Part shown: piece by piece, positions 41,938 to 64,000 of the stretch
How positions within the stretch are numbered: the first letter of the stretch is position 1
How the letters are laid out: every line of letters starts with the position of its first letter
Assembly (NCBI GenBank): GCA_012519055.1
Contig: JAAYQU010000043.1
Location: 1 to 64,000 of the forward strand
Direction of reading: 5' to 3'
DNA length: 64,000 nt
Source of the DNA: Bacteroidales bacterium
GTDB taxonomy: Bacteria > Bacteroidota > Bacteroidia > Bacteroidales > Salinivirgaceae
Made by a program: the position numbers and the translations under genes
The notes under the pieces: generated by a model
Databases searched by the model: none
Seen by the model: the letters and a program-made list of their open reading frames with translations, nothing else
What the model was told of the DNA's origin: nothing

Positions 41938-44478
41938 ATGATAAACTTTAATCCAAATAGAATGAGACGCTTATTAATTATCCTGACATTTGCCTTAATT
42001 CCTACAACAGGATTGTTTGCACTTGACTTTTACTGGAAAGGAGGAACAGGAAAATGGAATGATCCAACTATGTGGGAACTTCTAACAGCAAAATCTAATG
42101 AAGAAGTAATTCCATCAAAAACTGACAATGTATTTATCGATAAGTCTAACAGTCATATCTTTATTGACAACAATATTGAGGTTGGAAACCTATACTGGGA
42201 ATCCGGAAAAATAACCGGAAAACCAGAAACTAAAATTTCATCATACGGAATAATTGAAATTGGGACATCCGTTGTTGATAATTTTGAAGGTGTATGGGTT
42301 TTAAAATCGGAAAAAAGAAGCACTATAAGATCTGATATCAAACTAAAAGGCTCAGTTCATATAGAGGCTATCGGAGAAGTTGTTTTGAACACTCCAATAA
42401 AAACATATTCTGATTTTGTGATTAAGAAAGGAAAGGTTACTATCAGCAGTTTAGTTGAATGTAATGTTTTAATTTTAGAGGAAAATGAAGCATATAACAT
42501 CTTAATAAACAATGCCACTATTCGTAAAGACCATTTAGTTATTCGGGATAATCCAAATCGTAAGCTAAAAATTAACGGAATAAATCTTGAAAGAGTAACC
42601 CCAAGAGATGTAACAAGAGAAGGTGAGCTGGCAAAAGGAGAAGTCTATCACTTTTGCGATAATACAAATGCCCAATTAGTCTTAAAAGCAGCAAAAGAAC
42701 CAAATGTTCCTCTACCCTATGTTAAATTTTTTGTGATTTGGTTTGATCAAAATCTTGTTGAACGAGGCACATTCACAGAAATACGCCCTACAAGTGGTCT
42801 AGAGGCAGTTGACTCTATAATTGTGCAATCTACTCATTCTCATACTCCAGACACCATAATATATTCTTATTGGCAAGTATCTTATCATGATAGCGCAAAT
42901 GCCATAGACTTGCCCCCTGCTACCTATGATATAGAAGGTACAGGTAATCGCCACTATTTATCTGAAAACAGTGTATATACAGCATATTGTGACAGCATAG
43001 TTCCAGCTACAATTGGGAAACCTAATGGTGCTATATATATGAACAAGAATGGAGCTGCTCCAGTAAAATATTCAATAGTGGGTGAAACTAATCAGGATGG
43101 AGTGTTTGAAGGCTTGGTCGCGGGCACGTACAACGTCACAGTGACGAGTGATAGCTCAACATGTATTAAGGAAACTGTAATAAACAATATCATGGTTGGA
43201 GAAGTGGAGCTAAAAAACTTGACGGCAGTTCAACTAAATGCTTCTCCCAATGCATTAGTTAACGTTCCACACACCTCTTCTTTCATTATTTTTAACCAAG
43301 GATCTTATCTTGTTGCAGGGACACAATATACAGTTCAGCTACAAGATACAGCAAATACCGTATTGGCAACTGCAAGCGGAGTAGATATAGCTTCAGAAGC
43401 ACAAGCTTCTATTGACATAACGTGGACACCAACAACAGCAGGAACTATTGGCATTAAAGGTGTTATCCTATATGCCGAAGATCAAAATCCTAATGATGAC
43501 ACCACTGCTATTGTCAACGTAACAATAACTCATCAAGAATATACTTTAACATTAGTTGCAAATCCAGCCAATGGAGGTACCGTAAACGATAACGTAAACG
43601 GCAACTACCAACAAGGCGAAAATATCACAGTGGTAGCCACACCTGCTGATGGATACTGCTTCATTAACTGGACAAAGGACGGAGTTGAAGTTAGTACTGA
43701 TGCAGAATTTGTATATACAATGCCAAGCGAAAATGTTACTTTAACTGCTAATTTTGAAGTTACATATACTGTAACATTTAAAGTTTATTATGAGTTAGGT
43801 GGTCCAATCGAAGGTGCAACTATCGTAGTTAACGGAGAGACATTAACAACCGATTCCTTAGGAATAGCTACTATTAACTTACCTAATGGAGAGTATTATT
43901 GGATATTATCCATATCAGGGTTATCTGATACAGAAGGCTCGATTACAGTTAACAATCAAGATGTTGAGATATTTATTGAGGCTCCAGCGCAACATTTTGC
44001 AATTACTTTCCATGCAGAATGTGGTGGAGTACCACTTGAAGGAGTAGCAGTTAGTGTTGACGGTGATCTTGAGAGCGGAGAGTTAACAACTGACGAACAG
44101 GGTAATGCTACAATAGAATTAGTTAATGGAGACTACACTTATACCGCTACAAAAGAAGGATATAACGATTTAAATGGTTCGTTTGTAGTTAACGATGCTG
44201 AACAAACAATTACTCTAAATATGATTGGAATTGAAGGGTTGACAGAGAATTTTTTACGACTATATCCTAATCCAGTTGAAAGCATATTAACAATAGAACG
44301 TAACAGTAGCGACGAAGTTATTATTGAGCTATATAACATAGATGGTACACTAATCGGTACAACAAAAACCGATAATGCAACAACCACTATTAATGTTGGA
44401 ACGTTAAACTCAGGTTCTTACTTTGTAAGAATAATTGGAGCTAACAAAACTATAGTACATAGGTTTATTAAGAGATAA
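41938..44478 (+). CDS. T9SS-sorted multidomain surface protein
   Basis: An 846-residue exported protein (start possibly at the ATG 41962, where the signal peptide MRRLLIILTFALIPTTGLFA begins). It opens with FYWKGGTGKWNDPTMWE, a motif common at the start of Bacteroidota adhesin-like proteins. Further on are a SprB-like repeat (GKPNGAIYMNKNGAAPVKYS), a CARDB-like region, a divergent InlB B-repeat (ANPANGGTVNDNVNG ... ENVTLTANF), two carboxypeptidase-regulatory-like beta domains (VYYELGGPIEGATIVVNG, CGGVPLEGVAVSVDG) and a type A C-terminal sorting signal (LYPNPVESILTI ... GSYFVRIIG). It should be secreted by the type IX system and attached at the surface; adhesion is likely. Confidence 0.85.
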   Translation: MINFNPNRMRRLLIILTFALIPTTGLFALDFYWKGGTGKWNDPTMWELLTAKSNEEVIPSKTDNVFIDKSNSHIFIDNNIEVGNLYWESGKITGKPETKISSYGIIEIGTSVVDNFEGVWVLKSEKRSTIRSDIKLKGSVHIEAIGEVVLNTPIKTYSDFVIKKGKVTISSLVECNVLILEENEAYNILINNATIRKDHLVIRDNPNRKLKINGINLERVTPRDVTREGELAKGEVYHFCDNTNAQLVLKAAKEPNVPLPYVKFFVIWFDQNLVERGTFTEIRPTSGLEAVDSIIVQSTHSHTPDTIIYSYWQVSYHDSANAIDLPPATYDIEGTGNRHYLSENSVYTAYCDSIVPATIGKPNGAIYMNKNGAAPVKYSIVGETNQDGVFEGLVAGTYNVTVTSDSSTCIKETVINNIMVGEVELKNLTAVQLNASPNALVNVPHTSSFIIFNQGSYLVAGTQYTVQLQDTANTVLATASGVDIASEAQASIDITWTPTTAGTIGIKGVILYAEDQNPNDDTTAIVNVTITHQEYTLTLVANPANGGTVNDNVNGNYQQGENITVVATPADGYCFINWTKDGVEVSTDAEFVYTMPSENVTLTANFEVTYTVTFKVYYELGGPIEGATIVVNGETLTTDSLGIATINLPNGEYYWILSISGLSDTEGSITVNNQDVEIFIEAPAQHFAITFHAECGGVPLEGVAVSVDGDLESGELTTDEQGNATIELVNGDYTYTATKEGYNDLNGSFVVNDAEQTITLNMIGIEGLTENFLRLYPNPVESILTIERNSSDEVIIELYNIDGTLIGTTKTDNATTTINVGTLNSGSYFVRIIGANKTIVHRFIKR

Positions 44479-52688: not shown

Positions 52689-53531
52689 ATGGTTTCAATT
52701 GAGGAGAGCAATAGATTTATTTCAGCAATCAAGAACGTTTCGACATATGACTTTACGGATTATTCCGAAATGTCATTCCGTCGCCGTATCGATAAAATTC
52801 TCATTGATAACAGGATGTCTATTGACGAACTTATTCTCAAAGTATCAAAAGATAGTAACTTTTTAGAGAAAGTCATTCAGGGAATAACAGTAAATACTAC
52901 TGAACTATTTCGTGACCCTGAATTGTGGACTACATTGAAATACAGAGTGCTTCCAGATTTTAAACAAAACAAATCAATTTTTATTTGGCATGCTGGGTGT
53001 TCGAGTGGACAGGAAATATACTCCATGCTTATTCTTCTAAACGAACTTGACATGTTTGATAGGGCCAAAGTTTTTGCCACTGACCTAAATACCGAGATGC
53101 TTGAAAAAGCTAAAAAGGGAGAATACAGATACAGATTTAACCTTAATTATTTAGACAACTTTGACAAAGTTATTAGAGAAAACCCATATAACTACGAGGA
53201 TGTACGTGACGTTCCGTATGAAAAATACTTTGATATTGATAACAGTAAAGACTCTATAACTATGAAGCCTTTTTTAAGAAATAAGGCTATATATAGAAAA
53301 CACGACTTAGTTAACGACAAAAATATTTTTTATTCAAAATTCGATATTATATTTTGTAGAAATGTTATTATTTACTTTAACAACAAGCTGCAAAATAGGG
53401 TTATTGAGATGTTTTCTAACAATCTTTACCGTGATGGTTATTTAATTTTAGGTGCACACGAAAGTATATTAGGTTCAATGGCTAACAATTTTGAAAGAAC
53501 AAAAGGCATATATAAGAAAAAGTCATTCTAA
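52689..53531 (+). CDS. cheR: CheR-type protein-glutamate methyltransferase
   Basis: A 280-residue SAM-dependent methyltransferase. The N-terminal helical domain (FTDYSEMSFRRRIDKILI) and the SAM fold are both complete: TELFRDPELW, motif I HAGCSSGQEIYSM, then VFATDLNTEMLEKAKKGEY and FDIIFCRNVIIYF before the last strands. It should methylate glutamates on a receptor-like protein, but no chemoreceptor, CheA or CheW gene is in the window. First gene of a long plus-strand operon; the next gene starts three bases on. Confidence 0.88.
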   Translation: MVSIEESNRFISAIKNVSTYDFTDYSEMSFRRRIDKILIDNRMSIDELILKVSKDSNFLEKVIQGITVNTTELFRDPELWTTLKYRVLPDFKQNKSIFIWHAGCSSGQEIYSMLILLNELDMFDRAKVFATDLNTEMLEKAKKGEYRYRFNLNYLDNFDKVIRENPYNYEDVRDVPYEKYFDIDNSKDSITMKPFLRNKAIYRKHDLVNDKNIFYSKFDIIFCRNVIIYFNNKLQNRVIEMFSNNLYRDGYLILGAHESILGSMANNFERTKGIYKKKSF

Positions 53532-53534
53532 TTT

Positions 53535-54365
53535 ATGATACACGACATTGGCATAGTTGACACAAAAAAAATTATAGCTGCAATAAACGATAAATATGAT
53601 ATCGATTTTAGTGGTTATGCACTTACTTCGTTTAAGCGTCGTATATTGAAAGTAATGAATGACAATAATTACTCATCAGTAGTTGACTTTATTAATCGTT
53701 TGGAGACCGACCCCAGACTGTTTGAAAAGTATCTCTCTGAAGGCTTAGTTGACACAACCGAAATGTTCAGAGATCCTTCATTTTGGAGAGATTTAAGAGA
53801 TGTTTATTTGCCTGAACTTTTAAAAGCACATTCAAACATTAAAGTTTTAATGCCTGGCATTTCATCTGCAGATGACGTCTACAGCTTAATGATATTAATA
53901 AAAGAATCAAACCTTCAAGACAAAGTAAAAGTACTTGCAACCAGTTTAAGTCAATTAAGATTAGACGACCTGAACAACAACGTGTCATATGACATACGTA
54001 AAATGGAAAATTCTGAGGGCAATTATAAAAGATTTACAGATAGTAATGAAATTTCAAATTATTGTACTACTGAAGGTAATAGGGTAATAATGGACAGAAC
54101 TTTACTTGAAGGTGTCGAAACAAAAAAACACAACTTCGTTCAAGATGATCCTATTCCAGGACATCACCTTATATTGTACAGAAACAGAATGATATACTTA
54201 AATGCAACTACCCAAGATACAGTTTGTCAAACACTTTTTGATAGTTTGGTTATAGGTGGCATTTTTTGCATAGGATCAAAAGAAAATATTGATAGTTCGC
54301 CAATTTCTCGAAAGTTAACATGCTTAAATCAAATAGAAAAAATTTACAAAAAACGTAGCGTATGA
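53535..54365 (+). CDS. CheR-like protein with broken SAM-binding loop
   Basis: A 276-residue paralogue of the preceding CheR. The order of motifs is kept (FSGYALTSFKRRILKVM, TTEMFRDPSFW, VLMPGISSADDVYSLMIL, LILYRNRMIYLN) but the SAM loop GCSSGQE has become GISSADD, the acidic residue after the next strand is missing (VLATSLSQL instead of FATDLN), and the CRNV element is YRNRM. It is probably catalytically dead and may regulate or pair with the active CheR. It overlaps the CheB gene by four bases. Confidence 0.75.
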   Translation: MIHDIGIVDTKKIIAAINDKYDIDFSGYALTSFKRRILKVMNDNNYSSVVDFINRLETDPRLFEKYLSEGLVDTTEMFRDPSFWRDLRDVYLPELLKAHSNIKVLMPGISSADDVYSLMILIKESNLQDKVKVLATSLSQLRLDDLNNNVSYDIRKMENSEGNYKRFTDSNEISNYCTTEGNRVIMDRTLLEGVETKKHNFVQDDPIPGHHLILYRNRMIYLNATTQDTVCQTLFDSLVIGGIFCIGSKENIDSSPISRKLTCLNQIEKIYKKRSV

Positions 54366-54928
54366 TGTCAAATTATAGAGCAGTTATAATTGGTGGAAGT
54401 GCTGGAAGTTTTCAGGTAATAACACGAATATTATCATCATTACCTATGAACTATTCTTTGCCTGTTTTCCTGTGTTTACACAGGTTGAAGCATGTTAGAT
54501 CTGGATTTGTGGAAGCTCTGAGTATAAAGTCAAAACTGCCTGTTGTAGAACCAGATGATAAAGATGCTATCAAACCTGGCATAATATATTTGGCTCCTGC
54601 TAACTACCATATGCACATAGAGTTAGGAAACAGGTTTTCATTATCAACTGAGGAGCCTGTTAATCATAGTCGCCCTTCAATTGATTTGTCTTTTATGTCG
54701 GCAGCATATAACTATAAAAGAAAGCTTGTGGGGATAATTTTATCAGGGGCAAACCGAGACGGAGCAGTTGGATTAAAAAAAGTAAAAGAAAACGGTGGAC
54801 TAACCATTGTTCAAGACCCTGTAGAAAGCCAGGTTCCAACTATGCCAAATGCTTGTTTGCAAATTATGAGCGTTGATTATAAGTACTCAACAACGGAAAT
54901 AATCCGTTTTTTAAATAAAATAGGATAA
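54362..54928 (+). CDS. cheB: CheB-type methylesterase without receiver domain
   Basis: A 188-residue catalytic domain only. The triad is in place: Ser13 in GGSAGS, His40 in CLHRLKH and Asp133 in LSGANRDGA, with spacing like classical CheB. The absence of the regulatory receiver means it cannot be switched by CheA phosphorylation and must be controlled otherwise, or always be active. Start ATG overlaps the preceding stop region. It should remove methyl groups added by the CheR. Confidence 0.85.
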   Translation: MMSNYRAVIIGGSAGSFQVITRILSSLPMNYSLPVFLCLHRLKHVRSGFVEALSIKSKLPVVEPDDKDAIKPGIIYLAPANYHMHIELGNRFSLSTEEPVNHSRPSIDLSFMSAAYNYKRKLVGIILSGANRDGAVGLKKVKENGGLTIVQDPVESQVPTMPNACLQIMSVDYKYSTTEIIRFLNKIG

Positions 54929-54941
54929 CTTTGTAAACATT

Positions 54942-55697
54942 ATGGAAAAGATAAAAAAATATAAACGACAGCTATCATATCTGTTTTTATTATCAGTAAT
55001 ATTGATACTGTGCAATATCATTGTTTTTGACTACTTTAAACATTATTATAAATTCGCAACAGCATCTCTTGTTTTGCTTATAATCTTAATTGCGATAATG
55101 TACTTTAAAGTCAAACGTATGTTCGAAGTAATAAAAACAGAGCATATTAAATATACAAACAGTCTTTTACCTGAAAATGTAACAATAAAACAAGTTGTAA
55201 ACACTGAAGAATACAAAAATAAGGAACAAATTGAACAGAAACAAAGCGATTTCGACAGTTTAATCGAACAGTTTAACAAACTAAACGATCCTATTGAAAT
55301 AGCCAAAACATTCCTATCACGTATGGCTAAAGAGTTTGATATAGTTCAAGGGCTGTTTTACCAATACAATAACGACACAGAACTTTTTGAACCAATAGCT
55401 GACTACGCTTTTTATGGAGAAGAACAACCTGCTCCTTTTGGTTTTAGTGAAGGACTAAATGGTCAGGTTGCTAGAGATTGTAAAACACTATATTTAAGCG
55501 AACTACCTGATAATTATCGACAAATCATGTCAGGGTTAGGCAAAGGCGAACCAAAATACATTATTATCATTCCAGTAGTATCAAATGATAAAAGTGTTGC
55601 TGTTGTGGAATTAGCTTTATTCAATCATTTAAACTCTAAACAAATAACAATATTAGAGAAAATTCTTAACAACCTTTGTGAACATTTCGAAAAATAA
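54942..55697 (+). CDS. Membrane GAF-domain protein
   Basis: A 251-residue protein with two adjacent N-terminal transmembrane helices (about residues 9-29 and 34-56), a short charged coiled coil (~70-95) and a GAF domain (~100-250; FLSRMAKEFDIVQGLFYQYNN, GLNGQVARDCKTLYLSELPDNY). No enzymatic domain is present. The GAF resembles that of the following phosphatase, so it may heterodimerise with it and act as a second sensor. The ligand is unknown. Confidence 0.75.
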   Translation: MEKIKKYKRQLSYLFLLSVILILCNIIVFDYFKHYYKFATASLVLLIILIAIMYFKVKRMFEVIKTEHIKYTNSLLPENVTIKQVVNTEEYKNKEQIEQKQSDFDSLIEQFNKLNDPIEIAKTFLSRMAKEFDIVQGLFYQYNNDTELFEPIADYAFYGEEQPAPFGFSEGLNGQVARDCKTLYLSELPDNYRQIMSGLGKGEPKYIIIIPVVSNDKSVAVVELALFNHLNSKQITILEKILNNLCEHFEK

Positions 55698-55744
55698 AGT
55701 AGCTTTGTAAAAAACGTTAAAACATTTTTAAGTAACATAATCAT

Positions 55745-58369
55745 ATGAATTTCAAGCGGTCAAAACAAGTGCGAAAAATGCTTCTTGGTAGTGGATCTGA
55801 AACAGGATTTCCAATTGGCATTGTTCTTCTTGGCATGGCTTTTCCCATCATAGCATGGATTATAGAATTTATTATTCACGACCAAGAAATATCAATTTAT
55901 GGTTTGGTTCAAATACATATTTACAATCCTTCTTTGATAATAATAGATCTAGCACCTTTAGTTCTCGGTTTCATAGGATATCGTATTGAAAAGGTACTTC
56001 AAGCAAGTGAAAACTACTACAAAAACGACATTCAACAAAAGGAAAATACAATAAATCGTAATATTCAAATTGCAAAAAACATAGGTGAAGGCAATTTTCA
56101 AATAGATGATGTAATTATTGATGAAAAAGACATACTTGGACACTCTTTGATACGAATGAGAGACAATTTACTCTCTACTGCAAGAAAAGAAGCTGATCAA
56201 GGATGGATAGCAGCTGGGAAAGACCAAGTATCTGAAATACTTAGAAAGTACAATGATATTGAAAACCTAGCCTATCGAACATTAGTTTCATTAATTGAAT
56301 ACATAAAAGTCACACAAGGTGCATTTTATATCTATGACGAAGAGCACCAAACCCTTACAAATATAGCTACGTACGCTTATAACAGAAAGAGACAAATTAA
56401 TCAGAAGTTTAAAATTGGAGAAGGTATTATTGGTCAGGCTGCTTATGAAATGGACACCATTTACCTGAAAGAGATTCCTAACAACTATGTAACAATAACA
56501 AGCGGACTACTTAAAGATCAAAAACCAAACAGCATCCTTATAGTACCACTTATAACCGATGAAAAGCTTCAAGGTGTATTAGAGTTTGCCTCACTATCTA
56601 ACGATTTTACACGCCTTTCGATTCGCTTTTTACAAGAACTGAGTGAGATAATAGCACGAACTTTATTTAATTTAAAAGTAAATGCTAAAACAGAACGGCT
56701 GCTTCATGACTCACAACAAATGACCGAAGAACTTAAGGAAAATGAAGAAGAACTTCGTCAGAATGCAGAAGAGATGCGAGCTACACATGAAGAGCTTGAA
56801 CGAACAAATACCAAACTTGAACAACAAATACAAGAAGTAGAAAACTCACAAAAGAGGATACATTCACTATTAGAGAACGCTTCGGAAGTAATATCCATTT
56901 ACAACGATTCTCAACAATTAACATACGTTTCGCCGTCAGTAATAAATATCTATGGTTTTACACCCGAGGAAATGATAGAAGGCAAGGACTTTGACAGGCT
57001 CACATCAAAGGGGTACACCGACATAAAAAACATGTTTCAAACATTACTTAAAGAGCCAGAAAAACCAGTAGTCGTACAATTTACGTACATGCGCAAAGAC
57101 GGTAAAAAAGTCTATATCGAATCAGTTGGAAGAAATCTTTTACACGACCCTGCAATACAAGGGATTATCCTTAATTCACAGGATATAACAGAACGCAGAC
57201 GAGCTGAAAAAGAGGAGCGAATGAAGAGCAAAATGCAGGCTTTATCAGAAAATTCGCCCGATATGATTATGCGATTAAACCTGTCAGGTCAGTTCTTCTA
57301 TGCCAACCCAATAGTTAAAATATTTACTGGTGTCGACAATAAAACAATACTTGGCAAAAATATAGAGGAAGTTGATTTTAATAGTCAAATAAAAGAGTTT
57401 TTTATAAAAGCATTAGCTGAAGTTGGAAAAACATCTCAAAAACAGAACTACGAAACTACTTTCCCAACCAATTTTGGAGACAGAATTCAGCAAGTAAGTG
57501 CCATACCAGAGTTCAGCGAAGAAAAAGAGTTAGAAACAGTTCTCATTGTAGCTCACGACATTACCGAGCAAAAGAAAAATGAGAACGAGATTAAAGAGAA
57601 AAATAAAAATATTACAGAAAGCATAAATTACGCTGAACGAATACAAAAAGCACTACTTCCCGATACTAAATTAGTACAAGAATTTTTACCCAATTCATTT
57701 ATTTTTTATCTACCCCGCGATGTTATTAGTGGAGACTTCCCGTGGTTTTTTGTAAAAGATGACATTATCTACATTGCTGCTGTTGACTGTACCGGTCACG
57801 GTGTTCCGGGGGCACTATTATCATTTGTTGGATACTTTTTATTAAACAACGTTGTCGATCATGACAAAAATATGAACGCTGCCGAAATTTTAGATACGTT
57901 CCATCTAAAAGTCAGATCAGCTTTAAAACAAGATATGGAAGGCGCAAATGCTCGTGATGGTATGGATATTGCATTTTGCAAAATTAATTTAAAAACTAAA
58001 AAGCTCCATTACGCAGGTGCACACAGACCTCTATATTTTCTAAGAGACAAAAAACTAAAAGAGTTTAAAGGGAATCGCAAAGCCATCGGAGGTATACCTA
58101 TTGGAAGAAGGCCAGAAGAACCTTTTACAAATCACGAAATAGACCTTCATAAAGGCGATAAGGTTTTCTTTTTCTCTGACGGATTACCCGACCAAATAGG
58201 AGGCCCCAATAATTACAAATACCAGCCGAGAAGAATACGTGAATCAATTACAAATTATCATAATTACAGCATGAAACAATACCTTGACTACTTTAGCAAG
58301 GATTTTGTTGAGTGGAAAAGAGAAAACAAACAAATAGATGATGTCTTGTTAATAGGCATAGAGTTTTAA
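55745..58369 (+). CDS. GAF-PAS-PAS-PP2C (SpoIIE-type) phosphatase, SiaA-like role
   Basis: An 874-residue membrane-linked phosphatase. Two transmembrane helices (about 20-40 and 58-80), a HAMP-like linker (~95-145), GAF (~160-315), a coiled coil (~320-370), two PAS domains (~375-485, ~500-610) and a PP2C domain (~630-874). The PP2C motifs are DVISGDFPWFF, AAVDCTGHGVPGALLS, FFFSDGLPDQIGG and QIDDVLLIG; the usual GDFYW is GDFPW. Directly followed by SiaB- and SiaC-type genes, it should take the SiaA role, dephosphorylating the SiaC-type protein. The N-terminus differs from Pseudomonas SiaA. Confidence 0.85.
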   Translation: MNFKRSKQVRKMLLGSGSETGFPIGIVLLGMAFPIIAWIIEFIIHDQEISIYGLVQIHIYNPSLIIIDLAPLVLGFIGYRIEKVLQASENYYKNDIQQKENTINRNIQIAKNIGEGNFQIDDVIIDEKDILGHSLIRMRDNLLSTARKEADQGWIAAGKDQVSEILRKYNDIENLAYRTLVSLIEYIKVTQGAFYIYDEEHQTLTNIATYAYNRKRQINQKFKIGEGIIGQAAYEMDTIYLKEIPNNYVTITSGLLKDQKPNSILIVPLITDEKLQGVLEFASLSNDFTRLSIRFLQELSEIIARTLFNLKVNAKTERLLHDSQQMTEELKENEEELRQNAEEMRATHEELERTNTKLEQQIQEVENSQKRIHSLLENASEVISIYNDSQQLTYVSPSVINIYGFTPEEMIEGKDFDRLTSKGYTDIKNMFQTLLKEPEKPVVVQFTYMRKDGKKVYIESVGRNLLHDPAIQGIILNSQDITERRRAEKEERMKSKMQALSENSPDMIMRLNLSGQFFYANPIVKIFTGVDNKTILGKNIEEVDFNSQIKEFFIKALAEVGKTSQKQNYETTFPTNFGDRIQQVSAIPEFSEEKELETVLIVAHDITEQKKNENEIKEKNKNITESINYAERIQKALLPDTKLVQEFLPNSFIFYLPRDVISGDFPWFFVKDDIIYIAAVDCTGHGVPGALLSFVGYFLLNNVVDHDKNMNAAEILDTFHLKVRSALKQDMEGANARDGMDIAFCKINLKTKKLHYAGAHRPLYFLRDKKLKEFKGNRKAIGGIPIGRRPEEPFTNHEIDLHKGDKVFFFSDGLPDQIGGPNNYKYQPRRIRESITNYHNYSMKQYLDYFSKDFVEWKRENKQIDDVLLIGIEF

Positions 58370-58407
58370 TTGAAAGTTTAAGAAATGAATACAAATATCA
58401 AATTGTT

Positions 58408-58992
58408 ATGGATAGTAAAATAGAAATTAAGGAATTTTTAGAGTTTGTGTATAGTTTCTATAAAACTATGCGTGACCACCAAGTTGTTTTAGTTTACGAA
58501 GGCATTGTTACACACCAAGTTATCAAAGCATTTACTTCTTTAACGGAAACAAGTATGGAAACTCAAATGGAAGCTCCTTCCACACTAAAGAGAGTTTTCC
58601 ATGTCATGGTTGAATGCTTACAAAACATTAGTAAACATGCCGAATGTCTCGAAGAAAACATCTCTAATGTACATAAAGACGGCAAGGGTATTTTTTTGCT
58701 AAATAAAAGTAGCACTAATTATACTGTTACTACAGGCAATGTGGTTGGTAAAGACAAAATATCATCTATAATAACATTGATTGACCACATTAACTCCTCA
58801 GACAAAGAAGACTTGAAAGAGTTATACAAAGAAAGAATTAAAGAGGGTCGATTGTCAGAAAAAGGAGGTGCAGGTTTAGGATTTATTGATGTTGCCAGAA
58901 AAACCGGAAGTGAACTAAATTATCACTTTCTACCAATAAATGACGAGTACTCGTTTTTCATATTCTCAACCGAAATATCAAGAAACAATTAA
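58408..58992 (+). CDS. siaB: SiaB-type protein kinase
   Basis: A 194-residue protein of the SiaB (DUF6272) family, with a histidine-kinase-like ATPase fold. It shows an N-box-like helix (FHVMVECLQNISKHAE) and a Gly-rich region (SEKGGAGLGFIDVARKTG) that forms the ATP lid. In Pseudomonas SiaB phosphorylates SiaC on threonine. Place between phosphatase and SiaC-type gene supports the same role. Confidence 0.82.
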   Translation: MDSKIEIKEFLEFVYSFYKTMRDHQVVLVYEGIVTHQVIKAFTSLTETSMETQMEAPSTLKRVFHVMVECLQNISKHAECLEENISNVHKDGKGIFLLNKSSTNYTVTTGNVVGKDKISSIITLIDHINSSDKEDLKELYKERIKEGRLSEKGGAGLGFIDVARKTGSELNYHFLPINDEYSFFIFSTEISRNN

Positions 58993-59007
58993 TTAATCAA
59001 CATAACC

Positions 59008-59391
59008 ATGGAAGTAATAAAAATCATTAAAACAGACGATACGCCAAGTATTACACTTGATGCACAAAATGATCTTTTTGAAATTTCAGGACGTTCACTA
59101 CCTGAGGATGTTGCAGCCTTTTATGAACCAATACTCGATTGGCTCGAAAGATACTCAAAAGACCCTAACGATAAAACCGTTTTCAATTTCAAATTAGTAT
59201 ATTTTAATACCGCATCATCAAAACTATTACTCGATATTCTCTTGATACTCGAGGAAATTTACGAAGCAGGCAACGACGTACTAGTCCGTTGGCATTTCCC
59301 TGACGATGATGAAGATATGGAAGAGGCGGGAGAAGAATATGCAGATATCGTTGAAATTCCGTTTGAACAAGTTAGTTATTCTATGGATTAA
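59008..59391 (+). CDS. siaC: SiaC-type regulatory phosphoprotein
   Basis: A 127-residue DUF1987 protein. The N-terminal strands and the LVYFNTASSKLLLDILL helix carry Thr68, the same position as the phosphorylated Thr68 of Pseudomonas SiaC (known from the family literature as I recall it). The C-terminus is strongly acidic (DDDEDMEEAGEEYAD) and then regular. Phosphorylation should decide which partner it binds. No SiaD-type diguanylate cyclase follows; the next gene is a transporter, which may be its target (inference). Confidence 0.85.
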   Translation: MEVIKIIKTDDTPSITLDAQNDLFEISGRSLPEDVAAFYEPILDWLERYSKDPNDKTVFNFKLVYFNTASSKLLLDILLILEEIYEAGNDVLVRWHFPDDDEDMEEAGEEYADIVEIPFEQVSYSMD

Positions 59392-59427
59392 TTAAGCTTG
59401 CTAAATAACCATCAAACACATTAAGGT

Positions 59428-62400
59428 ATGAGTGAAGAAATTCTCAAAGCGTTGATGCAACTTTTCGCCCTCATTGCTAAACAAGATAGCGGTGTTGCTA
59501 GTAACGAATTGATTTTTGTGAAAAAATTTCTAACGTCACAGCTAAACCACGAAGCTGTTACAGAATACCTTAATCTGTTTTACGAACATGCAGACATAGA
59601 CCCGAACAATATCAACAACCAAGATAAAGAGCAGCAATTAACATCTGTCAGAGACTCAGTAAGAATTCTTGGTATTTGTAAGAAAATTAACCGGCGACTT
59701 ACCCAAAAACAAAAAATAGTTGTTCTGGTACGTCTATTCGAGCTTGTAAATGCTGATAAAAAATTTACCGAACAGCGGATGGCTATCATCAACACCGTTG
59801 CCGAAGTATTTAATGTAACTTCTGAAGAATTTCAAAGTACAGAGCAATTCATTATTGATGATCCACAAACAATAAGCAACAGTAACATTCTTAGAATTAG
59901 TAGCAAACCAACTATCGAAAACGATGAGTGTAAACAAATTGAAACAGAAGAGCTAGATGAAGATATACTTATTCTTCAAATTAAAAGTGTTGAACTATAT
60001 TTCTTACGTTACACAGGAACTGAAGAGATACTACTGAACGGATTGCCAATTAACAATGAAAACATATATATCTTCGCCAACGGGAGTTCAATCAGGCTAC
60101 CTAAGGGAAAACCAATATACTACTCCGATGTTATATCTCACTTTTTAGCAGACGTAACTTCTGCACATATTTCTTTTAATGTTGATAATGTAGGGTTCAA
60201 ATTTCCAAATGGAACTATTGGTTTAAGGAACATCTCTATTTCAGAAGAACAAGGAAGACTTGTTGGAATTATGGGTGCCAGCGGAGCAGGTAAAACTACA
60301 TTGCTTAATTTATTAACAGGTTTGCAGAGTCCATCAACAGGAACTGTAAAAATAAACGGTATAGACTTACATGCCCAAAGCGAGCAACTTGAAGGTGTAA
60401 TTGGCTCAATTCCACAAGACGACCTTCTTATCAGTGAGCTTACTGTATATGAAAACTTATACTATAACGCAAAACTATGTTTCAAAGATTTGTCAAACGA
60501 AGAGATTGACAAACTTGTACTCAAAACTCTAAATAGTTTAGGTCTATTAGAACGCAAAGACCTTAAAGTAGGATCTCCACTTAACAAAGTTATTAGTGGA
60601 GGACAAAGAAAACGTTTGAACATTGCACTTGAATTAATTCGCGAACCATCTATACTATTTGTTGACGAACCAACATCGGGATTATCATCAAGAGACTCGG
60701 AAAACGTTATGGACCTTTTACGTGAACTCGCACTTAAAGGTAAATTAATTTTCGTCGTAATCCACCAGCCATCATCAGACATATACAAAATGTTTGATAG
60801 AATGATAATTTTAGACACTGGCGGATATATGATATATTATGGTAATCCTGTAGAGGCCGTTTCGTACTTCAAAACCATTGATAACCAAATTAATGCCGAG
60901 GTTGGAGAGTGTCCTACTTGCGGTAATGTCAACCCTGAGTTAATATTCAATGTGATTGATGCACAGGTAGTTGATGAGTTTGGAAGATATACAGGTAATC
61001 GCAAAGTAAGTCCCGAAAAGTGGGAAGAATACTATAAGGAGAGTACCAAATACGAGCGAATTGATGATGTTAAGCAAAAACCTCCAAAAACGCTTAATAT
61101 TCCTAATTGGTTTTCGCAATTCAAAATTTACACAATAAGAGACGTATTATCTAAAATTAGTGATAAACAATACATTATAATTAACCTATTGGAAGCCCCA
61201 CTATTAGGTTTTATTCTCGCATTCATAATTCGTTATATAGAACCCGACTCTGATACATACGTATTCAGAGTAAATAGTAATATCCCCATATATATCTTTA
61301 TGGGACTTATCGTAGCCATATTCCTTGGGTTTATAGTTAGTGCCGAAGAGATATTTAAAGACCGGAAAATACTTAAACGTGAGGCGTTTTTAAACCTCTC
61401 AAGATCAAGCTATTTAGCAAGTAAAGTTGTAATACTATTTGCTATTTCAGCAATTCAATCAATTCTATTCATATTAATTGCCAATCCAATTCTAGAAGTT
61501 CAAGGTCTTAATTTTGAATATTGGATGACACTATGGACAATAGCTGCATTTTCTAACATGCTCGGCTTAAACATATCATCTGCATTTAACTCAGCTGTAA
61601 CTATTTACATTTTAATTCCTTTACTAATGATACCACAAATGGTATTAGGAGGTGCAATGTTCAGCTTTGATAAATTAAACAAAGCTATTGGCAGCGTTGA
61701 TAAAGTACCTTTGATTGCAGAGTTTATCCCGTCGCGTTGGAGCTACGAAGCACTTATGGTTAAACAATTCAAAGACAATGAATTTGAAAAGTTCTTTTAC
61801 GAATATGATAAAACAATAAGCAACGGTGACATAAAAGGAACAAAATGGACGGCAGAAATACGTCAACGAATAGACGAATCATTAACTGGTATTTTTTCTA
61901 AAAATGAAGATAGAATTAAGAAAGCCGAAAAAACCTTGAAGTTAATACAAAACGAAATTGGACGAGAGTTAGAGACAAATCCACACGTTGAGTTTGGCTA
62001 TCTTGACGAACTTACAATCGAGAGTTTTGACGCATTTGTTGCAGACCAAACACTTGATTACCTCAGTCGAGTAACTGATTATTACGAAATAGAGATTGCA
62101 AAAGCAACAAAAGCCAAAGAAAATATTATCATAGCATTAGATGCGAAAGATCCAAGTATCTACATTAACCAACAAAATAAATATCATAATGAAGCGGTTG
62201 GAGATATTGTAAAGAATATCTACGTAAAACAAGTTGTGGAATCTGACGGAAAACTAATCAAACAACGTGACCCCATTTTTAGAATATCAAAACCAGACAA
62301 CTTATTTAGTTTCAGAACACACTTTTACTCTCCCAAAAAACACTTTATGGGTGCTTACTTCGATACATTTTGGTTCAATACAGTAATAGTATGGTTAATG

Positions 62401-62583
62401 ACAGCACTGATGTATGTCACTCTATACTACGATCTTTTGAAAAAAGCTATCGACTTAAACATTGGAAAAGGAATTAGTAGGCGGTTATCAATGATTAACT
62501 TTAGCAAATTAACTAAGCCAATAAAAAACAGAGTAGCAAAAATTAAACTTCCAAGAATAATAATACGATTTAGAAAAAAATAA
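59428..62583 (+). CDS. ABCG-like ABC transporter with TerB-like N-terminal domain
   Basis: A 1051-residue fusion. Residues ~1-140 form a helical TerB-like domain (LMQLFALIAKQDSGVASNE), ~175-245 a beta region similar to FHA-type modules, then an ABC ATPase with Walker A GASGAGKTT (~285), signature ISGGQRKR (~389), Walker B ILFVDEPTSG (~408) and H-loop VVIHQPS. A CPTCG pair lies near 495. The membrane half has about six helices (around 590-615, 628-650, 670-690, 705-730, 735-760 and near 990) with a large helical insertion at ~790-960 before the last one. Layout ATPase-then-membrane matches ABCG exporters. Its cargo is unknown; it sits directly after siaC. Confidence 0.82.
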   Translation: MSEEILKALMQLFALIAKQDSGVASNELIFVKKFLTSQLNHEAVTEYLNLFYEHADIDPNNINNQDKEQQLTSVRDSVRILGICKKINRRLTQKQKIVVLVRLFELVNADKKFTEQRMAIINTVAEVFNVTSEEFQSTEQFIIDDPQTISNSNILRISSKPTIENDECKQIETEELDEDILILQIKSVELYFLRYTGTEEILLNGLPINNENIYIFANGSSIRLPKGKPIYYSDVISHFLADVTSAHISFNVDNVGFKFPNGTIGLRNISISEEQGRLVGIMGASGAGKTTLLNLLTGLQSPSTGTVKINGIDLHAQSEQLEGVIGSIPQDDLLISELTVYENLYYNAKLCFKDLSNEEIDKLVLKTLNSLGLLERKDLKVGSPLNKVISGGQRKRLNIALELIREPSILFVDEPTSGLSSRDSENVMDLLRELALKGKLIFVVIHQPSSDIYKMFDRMIILDTGGYMIYYGNPVEAVSYFKTIDNQINAEVGECPTCGNVNPELIFNVIDAQVVDEFGRYTGNRKVSPEKWEEYYKESTKYERIDDVKQKPPKTLNIPNWFSQFKIYTIRDVLSKISDKQYIIINLLEAPLLGFILAFIIRYIEPDSDTYVFRVNSNIPIYIFMGLIVAIFLGFIVSAEEIFKDRKILKREAFLNLSRSSYLASKVVILFAISAIQSILFILIANPILEVQGLNFEYWMTLWTIAAFSNMLGLNISSAFNSAVTIYILIPLLMIPQMVLGGAMFSFDKLNKAIGSVDKVPLIAEFIPSRWSYEALMVKQFKDNEFEKFFYEYDKTISNGDIKGTKWTAEIRQRIDESLTGIFSKNEDRIKKAEKTLKLIQNEIGRELETNPHVEFGYLDELTIESFDAFVADQTLDYLSRVTDYYEIEIAKATKAKENIIIALDAKDPSIYINQQNKYHNEAVGDIVKNIYVKQVVESDGKLIKQRDPIFRISKPDNLFSFRTHFYSPKKHFMGAYFDTFWFNTVIVWLMTALMYVTLYYDLLKKAIDLNIGKGISRRLSMINFSKLTKPIKNRVAKIKLPRIIIRFRKK

Positions 62584-62694
62584 TTAGTATATTTAGGCTT
62601 TGAAAAAGTTAAAATTAAGTACATGTTTTAATATAAATATATATAACACAGCAAATCAAATCATTAAACAGAAATACTACAAAAGAATATATCT

Positions 62695-63627
62695 ATGAAT
62701 CGGATTATAATTTACTCAATAATTATCGCTATTGCTGGATATGGTTGCGGAGGATGTAATAACAACAAAACAAGTAGCAATACTGATATTTTCAAATCTA
62801 TAGTAGAAGAGAGTGATGCATTGGATTCTATGGAATATGAAACATCTGAAACCACAGAAACTCTACAAATTCTGCAAAATATATCCTCGTCACCCGTTGA
62901 AATGGCAGCCCTTTTACAGGCAACGGGAGTTCCGTTCAACGAAAACTACATAACAAGCATTGATGATGTTGACCGTTACAACACAGACTTTAAACGGGCA
63001 CTTAACCTCGGTATTTTTGGTGCAGACTTGGGATATTTAAATATGTATAGAAAGACAGGTCCGGTTATGACCAATATGCGAGCTATACGTAAATTAAGTG
63101 AAGAGCTAAGAGTACAACAATTCTTTGACTTTAATACAATACGCAGATTAGCCACTAATAATGAAAATCTTGATTCATTAATGTACTTATCTGTATCAAG
63201 TTTTAACAACATGGACGTTCACCTGCAAAAAACAGGACGTTCTGAAGTTAGTGCTTTAATAATTTGTGGAATGTGGGTAGAAGGTATGTTTATTGCTACA
63301 CAAGTTATAAAAAATGCTCGTCAAAACACAGAAGTAATTGAACGCATTGGAGAACAAAAGACTATAGTTGAAAACTTAGTAGATATTCTTTCACACTATA
63401 AGAAAAATCCACAATATGCGCAATTACATAAACACTTTTCACGTATTTTGGACTCTTTTGATGGTGTAACCAAAACTATTGTGCAAGGAGAAGGCAAGGA
63501 AGTTGAAATTGACGGTATTTTAGTTTATATTCAAAACGAAACATCATATGTTAACGTACCCGAAAAAACTTTAGACAACATTATCAAGTCAATTGATGAG
63601 GTTAGACAAGAAATAATAAATATTTAA
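62695..63627 (+). CDS. Hypothetical lipoprotein
   Basis: A 310-residue helical protein with a lipoprotein-type signal (MNRIIIYSIIIAIAGYGC, Cys at 18, followed by GGC). The mature part starts with a Ser/Glu/Thr linker and continues as an all-helical domain with no known motif. It lies 112 bases after the ABC transporter in the same direction and may assist it in the periplasm. Conserved neighbours would help: it is one of two exported proteins that close the visible operon. Confidence 0.6.
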   Translation: MNRIIIYSIIIAIAGYGCGGCNNNKTSSNTDIFKSIVEESDALDSMEYETSETTETLQILQNISSSPVEMAALLQATGVPFNENYITSIDDVDRYNTDFKRALNLGIFGADLGYLNMYRKTGPVMTNMRAIRKLSEELRVQQFFDFNTIRRLATNNENLDSLMYLSVSSFNNMDVHLQKTGRSEVSALIICGMWVEGMFIATQVIKNARQNTEVIERIGEQKTIVENLVDILSHYKKNPQYAQLHKHFSRILDSFDGVTKTIVQGEGKEVEIDGILVYIQNETSYVNVPEKTLDNIIKSIDEVRQEIINI

Positions 63628-63679
63628 GTAATAAGTTACTATTATAGAAGAAATCAAAATTAAGAAAAACAGATTACCC

Positions 63680-64000
63680 ATGAGGCAGATATTTCTCTTA
63701 TTAATAATTGGTTTAGTATTATCGGCAAATACCACAATGGCGCAGAGTGATGAGTTAGTTAATTCCTGTGCGCTCAATATTGGAAATGCCACATATTTGA
63801 AAGATTTCAAATATAAAATGCCACAAAGTGCTGTTAAACCACCACCATCTACAAAAAACAGTATCGTATTAAACAAAGGCACAATATATAAGTTCAGTAC
63901 TTGTAATGCCGATGGATACGAGGGAAAATTGATTGTTGAAATATTTGATGGTCCAAATAAATTGGTATCAAATCTTAAAGCAGATGGAGCAATTGATAAT
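63680..64000 (+). CDS. Exported hypothetical protein (3'-truncated)
   Basis: From the ATG at 63680 the frame is open to the right edge (107 codons). It begins with a Sec signal peptide (MRQIFLLLIIGLVLSANTTMAQ). The visible mature part has two Cys (VNSCALNIG, FSTCNADGYEG) and beta-strand character. The gene is 52 bases after the lipoprotein gene on the same strand and probably belongs to the same operon. No family is recognised. Confidence 0.7.
   Translation, partial: MRQIFLLLIIGLVLSANTTMAQSDELVNSCALNIGNATYLKDFKYKMPQSAVKPPPSTKNSIVLNKGTIYKFSTCNADGYEGKLIVEIFDGPNKLVSNLKADGAIDN

Follow-up and report, generated by a model that had tools for sequence, protein, structure and literature searches.

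A cluster of ten genes in a 64,000-base stretch of DNA from a Bacteroidales bacterium of the Salinivirgaceae (assembly GCA_012519055.1, contig JAAYQU010000043.1) sets the methylation enzymes CheR and CheB beside a SiaABC-type partner switch and an ABC exporter. We consider it probable, on balance, that this cluster is a partner-switch controller of the exporter fitted with a chemotaxis-type adaptation module that works with no chemoreceptor. The proposal builds on the genes and their conserved order, their catalytic residues, a pattern of paired glutamates in the phosphatase together with a change of constraint on it, and the persistence of the enzymes in genomes where no chemoreceptor was found. 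The stretch, hereafter the window, covers bases 1-64000 of its contig, which is 64583 bases long; the genome measures 2.7 Mb and is assembled into 53 contigs. In cluster order the genes are CheR1, CheR2, CheB, GAFm, phosphatase, SiaB, SiaC, a TerB-FHA-ABCG transporter, EXP1 and EXP2, all on the + strand, with intergenic gaps of 3, -4, 13, 47, 38, 15, 36, 111 and 52 bases (Table 1). A first-pass annotation made from the sequence alone had placed them at these positions and had described ten same-strand genes with gaps of 112 bases or less; the largest gap is indeed 111, and Pfam and NCBIfam matches agree with the families it named.

In the textbook mechanism, bacteria adapt by having CheR and CheB adjust the methylation of receptors, with the chemoreceptor taken as the substrate. 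The first-pass annotation saw no chemoreceptor or CheW gene in the window, and our family searches bear this out, with no match to methyl-accepting chemotaxis proteins (MCPs) or CheW on the entire window contig. It left room for chemoreceptor and CheA genes immediately outside the window to account for CheR and CheB. Beyond the window the host sequence runs for 583 bases to the contig end, and across relatives this explanation does not hold in general: among 38 transporter-bearing genomes, host included, 30 have a CheW match and 30 an MCP match, and the same eight have neither, yet keep CheR and CheB. CheA carries a CheW domain; CheW-family matches were absent from the window contig and from these 8 of 38 genomes, no search having been made with CheA's own family. 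Seven of the eight hold CheR2 and CheB inside the cluster (G018, G093, G047, G014, G053, G043, G026), four of them with CheR1 beside CheR2-CheB, and the eighth, G066, has CheR-CheR-CheB away from the cluster. A short CheB is the only CheB match in G018, G093, G014, G053, G043 and G066, while G047 and G026 have a second. Because all eight are draft assemblies, 90 to 99% complete, a single missed MCP or CheW is possible. Since CheR and CheB are kept in eight genomes that match neither MCP nor CheW, enzymes of the cluster type need not serve chemoreceptors; being kept where no receptor was found, they probably tune the phosphatase together with its partner sensors instead. The same eight genomes rule out chemoreceptors as the only substrate.

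The first-pass annotation had also raised the case that the gene order occurs in this genome alone. This is not so: it recurs across many families, also outside the taxonomic order. The transporter or a paralogue was matched in 51 of 119 genomes of the same taxonomic order at E<=1e-60, and in 160 of 393 at E<=1e-150, while the class sample gave matches in 194 of 395 genomes. Selecting loci around the transporter, we read 139 neighbourhoods, for whose annotation we built ten profile HMMs from the first set; 111 fall in the orthologue score range and 28 are paralogous. The phosphatase is followed by SiaB in 93 of the 111 orthologous loci, and SiaC and the transporter come next in all 93 (91 plain, 2 with a doubled SiaB), with EXP1-EXP2 next after the transporter in 83. 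CheR2-CheB-GAFm lies directly upstream in 52 of the 93. In 25 of these CheR1 comes immediately before, and in 20 it comes with one additional gene, in most cases for a large GAF-PAS-PAS sensor that has no output domain. The 18 orthologous loci without the phosphatase-SiaB pair include three with SiaB-SiaC-transporter and no phosphatase (L064, L086, L184), one with SiaB-transporter, one with SiaC-SiaB in reversed orientation, and eight with upstream sequence too short to judge. Outside the taxonomic order, by coordinates alone, CheB lies on the same strand within 6 kb upstream of the transporter in at least eight genomes (G689, G546, G406, G601, G739, G407, G547, G496), although in G496 the available 1.3 kb leaves no room for the complete set. 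A Cyclobacteriaceae record (L278) has CheR2-CheB-GAFm-PP2C-SiaB-SiaC-ABC-EXP1-EXP2; its coil retains AEEMQATQEE and fails the strict regular expression described below. The gene order is also present in the single-contig genomes G115, G312 and G195 and in a second collection, which consists partly of the same assemblies.

The candidate target of methylation lies in the phosphatase. This protein scores 168 bits against the SiaA family NF038263, under that family's cut-off of 700, but its motif Asp residues are conserved in 94 of 94 aligned rows and it adjoins SiaB, as the PP2C phosphatase of a SiaABC partner switch does. Between its GAF domain and the following PAS domain is a coiled coil, read from the sequence by eye, with Glu pairs at 328/329, 335/336, 342/343 and 349/350, spaced by 7 and each followed by a hydrophobic residue. 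A regular expression for the pairs, written after the pattern was seen and counting identical sequences once, fits 95 of 143 phosphatases, 53 of 91 large sensors and 1 of 5 GAF/PAS fragments; it fits 1 of 1146 other open reading frames, itself an unlabelled sensor, and none in the other labelled families. One of the four host MCPs fits the strict expression, two more fit a looser form and one fits neither; this region of MCPs is the methylation helix. The MCP signalling hairpin domain PF00015 was found by family search in neither the phosphatase, the three sensors scanned nor the window contig, and the large GAF-PAS-PAS sensors (three scanned with Pfam) have no output domain. As a separate observation, one family (L072, L148, L153, L163, L177) has an extra, larger CheB beside an extra sensor, with a receiver identified by Pfam in L072; in these loci the strict motif is present in the sensor and absent from the phosphatase, as if the methylated protein had switched.

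The pairs are more common where CheB is linked. Counting CheB anywhere in the stretch read and on either strand, 61 of the 93 phosphatase-SiaB loci have CheB, L140 among them, and 32 do not, including four with short upstream sequence and L161, whose locus holds a receiver-bearing CheB. The motif is present in the phosphatase at 46 of 61 CheB loci versus 4 of 32 CheB-less ones, and in phosphatase or sensor at 53 of 61 versus 8 of 32 (Fisher p ~4e-9 for either comparison, kinship ignored). A four-pair score of at least 3, with L152, L167, L171, L181 and L140 excluded and the window included, gives 45 of 61 with CheB versus 3 of 28 without. Because most CheB-less rows form one clade, we compared conservation column by column between 22 rows of that clade, L166 excluded, and 62 rows with CheB (mean identity 0.549 and 0.541). 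E343, E329, E342, E349 and E335 rank 2, 4, 8, 9 and 10 of 852 columns for loss of conservation; the hypergeometric p for five pair columns in the top ten is ~4e-9, with the motif picked beforehand on the same data. The core residues L330, L337 and L351 hardly change in the CheB-less clade, and M344 drops from 0.97 to 0.82. When 33 clades of the tree (FastTree, local support only) were tested, at least four of the eight pair columns fell in the top 20 solely for the CheB-less clade and three sets nested with it. We read these alignments as a single lineage losing the constraint on the glutamates as CheR2-CheB-GAFm became unlinked, and not as many independent events.

Several observations weigh against a methylated coil. 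The pair columns E328, E336 and E350 keep their conservation in the CheB-less clade, and five of the top ten conservation-losing columns lie outside the coil. The motif is in neither phosphatase nor sensor at 8 of the 61 CheB-bearing loci, it is present in 3 of the 7 phosphatases read from the chemoreceptor-free genomes, and one family (L070, L134, L137) holds it though CheB is unlinked. The tree offers about six well-supported independent pairs that differ in CheB, and the pair test, from which the four loci with short upstream sequence (L152, L167, L171, L181) and L140 were excluded, is not significant: the motif changes in the same direction in 1.4 to 1.7 pairs on average and in the opposite direction in 0.0, the rest being unchanged. 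Finally, 22 of the 23 genomes of the CheB-less clade hold a short, presumably receiver-less CheB elsewhere, on the same contig in three cases. CheB is therefore unlinked there and not lost, and the enzymes probably act on something else in those genomes. The simple account in which the motif goes when CheB goes is weakened by those retained copies and by a pair test unable to reach significance. The first-pass proposal that methylation tunes the GAF sensors or the phosphatase has gained the heptad Glu pairs and a constraint that shifts with CheB linkage, but not a significant result from the tree pairs.

CheR1 and CheB both retain their catalytic motifs. CheR1 has GCS(S/T)GQE in 18 of 23 aligned rows and near variants in the other 5, retains the Asp of ATD in 23 of 23, and finds its best PDB sequence match in the CheR 5ftw. 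The 188-aa CheB has PF01339 as its sole Pfam domain, hence no receiver; it aligns to 3sft and 1chd, and G11, G12, S13, H40 and D133 are conserved at 90% or more in alignment A1. CheR2 had been described as a dead paralogue, a description that stands for most rows: the complete GCSxGxE SAM motif is present in 0 of 21, with only its SG(D/E)E end kept in most, and the Asp of ATD is gone in 20 of 21. It is not absolute, since L073 retains that Asp. TEMFRDP or close variants are kept in the CheR2 rows, and judging from these motifs CheR2 is probably a non-catalytic partner or targeting subunit. In GAFm the two hydrophobic stretches span aa 9-34 and 34-64.

These four genes also occur away from the switch. 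From 80 loci of the second collection, in which most other loci without SiaC or transporter stop at a contig edge, we chose nine unlinked cassettes by eye (L224, L225, L226, L229, L256, L257, L259, L268, L275). CheR1-CheR2-CheB stand together in all nine, and GAFm is labelled in seven; it is absent from L256, and in L226 it is probably represented by an unlabelled 294-aa GAF-like protein. Because GAFm travels with CheR1-CheR2-CheB in such loci, a functional tie to the methylation enzymes is suggested, for example as an input replacing the CheB receiver. The cassette of L259 lies on the opposite strand, facing the transporter cluster, and that of L268 lies a few genes downstream of a SiaB-SiaC pair; the remaining neighbours of the nine appear by eye to be unrelated, and no gene adjoining them matches the Glu-pair motif. 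We put forward only tentatively, as something a little short of an even prospect, that CheR1, pseudo-CheR2, receiver-less CheB and GAFm form a portable four-gene cassette, freed from chemoreceptors, that would write reversible glutamate methylation on the coils of phosphatases and sensors, a memory gating the exporter.

The remaining parts of the switch are well conserved. SiaB has a phmmer match to 6kko_A and keeps its motif residues E, Q, N and H in 94 of 94 rows; SiaC matches 6kko_C and 6k4f_U, and its Thr68 is present in 94 of 94. No GGDEF domain, that of the diguanylate cyclase SiaD, was found by Pfam in the ten cluster proteins. The host's 2.7 Mb hold 11 SiaC genes, on contigs C31, C47, C1, C16, C5, C49, C10 and C13 (L016-L023) and in the window. 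Seven of the 11 have no adjoining SiaB-like gene in the stretches read, in which there are three SiaB-like genes, window included, and two TerB-ABCG genes; SiaC is thus an expanded phosphoprotein family here. At L020:801-10443 two giant proteins of 1231 and 1243 aa resemble the window phosphatase and lie beside a third, partial one; facing them are two SiaC genes in tandem and a SiaB-like protein of 368 aa. L083 and L171 are clusters with a doubled SiaB gene.

The transporter comprises a TerB part (about aa 1-144), an FHA-like fold (about aa 150-240), an ABC ATPase (aa 266-417) and an ABC2 membrane part (aa 564-781). It is of ABCG type, PF00005 and PF01061 scoring above their cut-offs and TIGR00955 at 262 bits, under its own. 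The TerB part matches PF05099, and its best VIA-align row is 2h5n_B (Z 8.9, rmsd 3.6, 114 aligned). For the FHA-like fold of the AlphaFold2 model, Foldseek rows have probabilities of 0.97-1.00 but E values of 0.03-0.2, none below 0.001, and VIA-align gives Z 6 to 7.6 (5yyx: Z 7.3, rmsd 2.2, 78 aligned), in the tool's warning range. The model thus points to an FHA-like domain between TerB and ATPase, an addition to the earlier description; any phosphothreonine binding by it is putative. Paralogous TerB-ABCG loci with reversed SiaC-SiaB are L091, L093, L095, L097-L100, L103, L105, L192, L195 and L197, and several of these have an EXP1-like gene before the transporter. Neither EXP1 nor EXP2 matches a Pfam or NCBIfam family. 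The lipobox Cys of EXP1, C18, is invariant in 26 aligned sequences; its AlphaFold2 model (mean pLDDT 81) is mostly helical with a small beta part and has no Foldseek match with E <0.75. The top VIA-align row, 9cc4_C (Z 8.1, rmsd 3.1, 110 aligned), is uninformative because EXP1 is helical.

We propose that signals would be received by GAF and PAS domains in the membrane phosphatase, in GAFm and, in many relatives, in the extra GAF-PAS-PAS sensor. CheR1, probably helped by CheR2, would methylate the Glu pairs on the coil that follows the GAF domain, and the receiver-less CheB would demethylate them, perhaps with GAFm as its gate in place of a phosphorylated receiver. Neutralising these charges may alter the packing of the coil and with it PP2C activity, so that the switch gains a memory. 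Coiled-coil linkers activate PPM phosphatases through dimerisation (PMC12143880). The phosphatase and SiaB would then set the phosphorylation of SiaC at Thr68, as SiaA and SiaB do in Pseudomonas aeruginosa (PMC7647112). SiaC may act on the TerB-FHA part of the exporter, a natural docking site; in P. aeruginosa SiaC binding activates SiaD, and the authors propose that DUF1987 proteins modulate adjacent proteins (PMC8457831). The exporter would work with the lipoprotein EXP1 and the small exported protein EXP2. Within this scheme we infer the methylation itself, the roles of CheR2 and GAFm, the contact between SiaC and transporter, and the cargo.

It is quite improbable that CheR1 and CheB are ordinary chemotaxis enzymes, here by chance and acting on the genome's MCPs. 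The host does have four MCP-like proteins (signal-domain matches on C49 (two), C13 and C14) and a CheA/CheW-type operon on C1, with two CheW-family matches, one inside a CheA-sized frame. Because the host has MCPs, cross-talk may occur there, and MCP and CheW are both matched in 30 of the 38 genomes. But the C1 operon includes a CheR of its own, as well as a CheB-like protein of 395 aa that seems, by eye, to begin with a receiver, whereas the cluster CheB has none, and the other eight genomes, which match neither family, all retain CheR and CheB, seven of them in the cluster. A neighbourhood that is accidental or an assembly artefact would be easier to credit among relatives that are in many cases draft or metagenome assemblies; with the same order found in many families, in single-contig genomes and in the second collection, and CheB upstream of the transporter outside the taxonomic order, its probability is negligible. 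Chance neighbourhood is ruled out by the recurrence of the order across many families.

Two other alternatives are harder to dismiss. The Glu-pair coil could be an unmethylated surface on which CheR2, GAFm or the extra sensor docks or assembles, with the enzymes modifying something else. The coil surface did change in the clade that CheR2-CheB-GAFm left, though CheB and CheR persist elsewhere, CheR2 resembles a non-catalytic subunit, and there are the eight CheB-bearing loci that lack the motif. We nevertheless judge docking unlikely, given that the spacing and the E-E-M context agree with MCPs of the same genome and that CheR1 and CheB have kept their catalytic motifs. A further possibility, which we rate as doubtful but with an appreciable chance, is that SiaC is inactive on the adjacent transporter, the operon coordinating expression only and the transporter being driven otherwise. 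Because the host holds 11 SiaC copies, SiaC may have other partners; in 16 of the 28 paralogous transporter loci the stretch read, in some cases a short one, contains no SiaB-SiaC pair; and five orthologous loci with at least 5 kb upstream have no adjoining Sia gene (L074, L176, L179, L182, L187), a point that also counts against our proposal. Yet SiaC stands directly before the transporter in 93 of 93 phosphatase-SiaB loci and in the three loci without phosphatase (L064, L086, L184), and SiaC-SiaB adjoin 12 of the 28 paralogous loci, all in opposite orientation. The first-pass claim that SiaC controls the transporter has thus been strengthened by this adjacency, but not for the transporter loci that have no Sia genes.

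Table 1. Features of the ten-gene cluster, in window coordinates.
Feature	Position	Strand	Basis
CheR1, CheR-type protein-glutamate methyltransferase, motifs intact	52689..53531	+	PF01739 142.5 bits
CheR2, degenerate CheR paralogue	53535..54365	+	PF01739 63.5 bits, CheR_N 40.6 bits
CheB catalytic domain, receiver-less	54362..54928	+	PF01339 165.5 bits
GAFm, two hydrophobic stretches, charged linker and GAF domain	54942..55697	+	GAF_2 39.6 bits
SiaA-like phosphatase: hydrophobic N-terminus, GAF, coiled coil, PAS, PAS, PP2C/SpoIIE	55745..58369	+	Pfam; SpoIIE 70.3 bits
Coil segment aa 326-352 of phosphatase, candidate methylation helix	56720..56800	+	Glu pairs
SiaB-type protein kinase, DUF6272	58408..58992	+	NF038262 163.8 bits, cut-off 85
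SiaC phosphoprotein	59008..59391; Thr68 codon 59209-59211	+	PF09345 141 bits
TerB-FHA-ABCG exporter	59428..62583	+	Pfam; AlphaFold2 model and structure comparison
EXP1, apparent lipoprotein (Cys18)	62695..63627	+	Lipobox Cys
EXP2, small exported protein, 143 aa	63680..64000 in window; gene end at contig position 64111	+	Apparent signal peptide, by eye

Elsewhere in the window, positions 41938-44478 encode an 846-aa exported-looking protein whose C-terminus resembles, by eye, a Bacteroidota secretion sorting domain.

Alternative-function chemosensory pathways generally contain a chemoreceptor, CheW and CheA. Such pathways, Wsp for example, share with the cluster the use of CheR outside flagellar taxis (PMC3447774), but the cluster's contig has no MCP or CheW match and eight relatives have none anywhere. 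Like the cluster, SiaABCD of P. aeruginosa has an adjacent PP2C phosphatase, SiaB kinase and SiaC with Thr68 (PMC7647112). The cluster differs in that no diguanylate cyclase was found in it and SiaC is followed by a TerB-FHA-ABCG exporter and two exported proteins, and in that its phosphatase has a GAF-coil-PAS-PAS sensor part with CheR1, CheR2, CheB and GAFm upstream. RsbU-type PPM phosphatases likewise switch via coiled-coil linkers (PMC12143880), whereas the annotated cluster proteins include no RsbT-like gene and do include methylation enzymes and a GAF-PAS coil with Glu pairs. Rv1747 of Mycobacterium tuberculosis (PMC5549992) resembles the cluster transporter in that a single regulator-bound chain combines an ABC transporter with FHA domain(s); the cluster protein has TerB and one predicted FHA-like domain, and the associated kinase is SiaB. 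Among the papers listed by searches of a library without preprints and subscription journals, we recognised none that links CheR/CheB to SiaABC or to a different partner switch based on PP2C, which is weak evidence that none exists. The component families are known; what sets the cluster apart is how they are arranged, how well that order is conserved, that it persists in genomes with no chemoreceptor found, and the Glu-pair coil.

Genomes in which no chemoreceptor was found but which keep CheR and CheB, mostly tied to a phosphatase with relatives that bear Glu pairs resembling a methylation helix, make the action of adaptation chemistry on other signalling proteins directly testable. If our proposal is true, the SiaC partner switch would gain an output other than cyclic di-GMP, and a likely control point would be named for a widespread and uncharacterised family of exporters.

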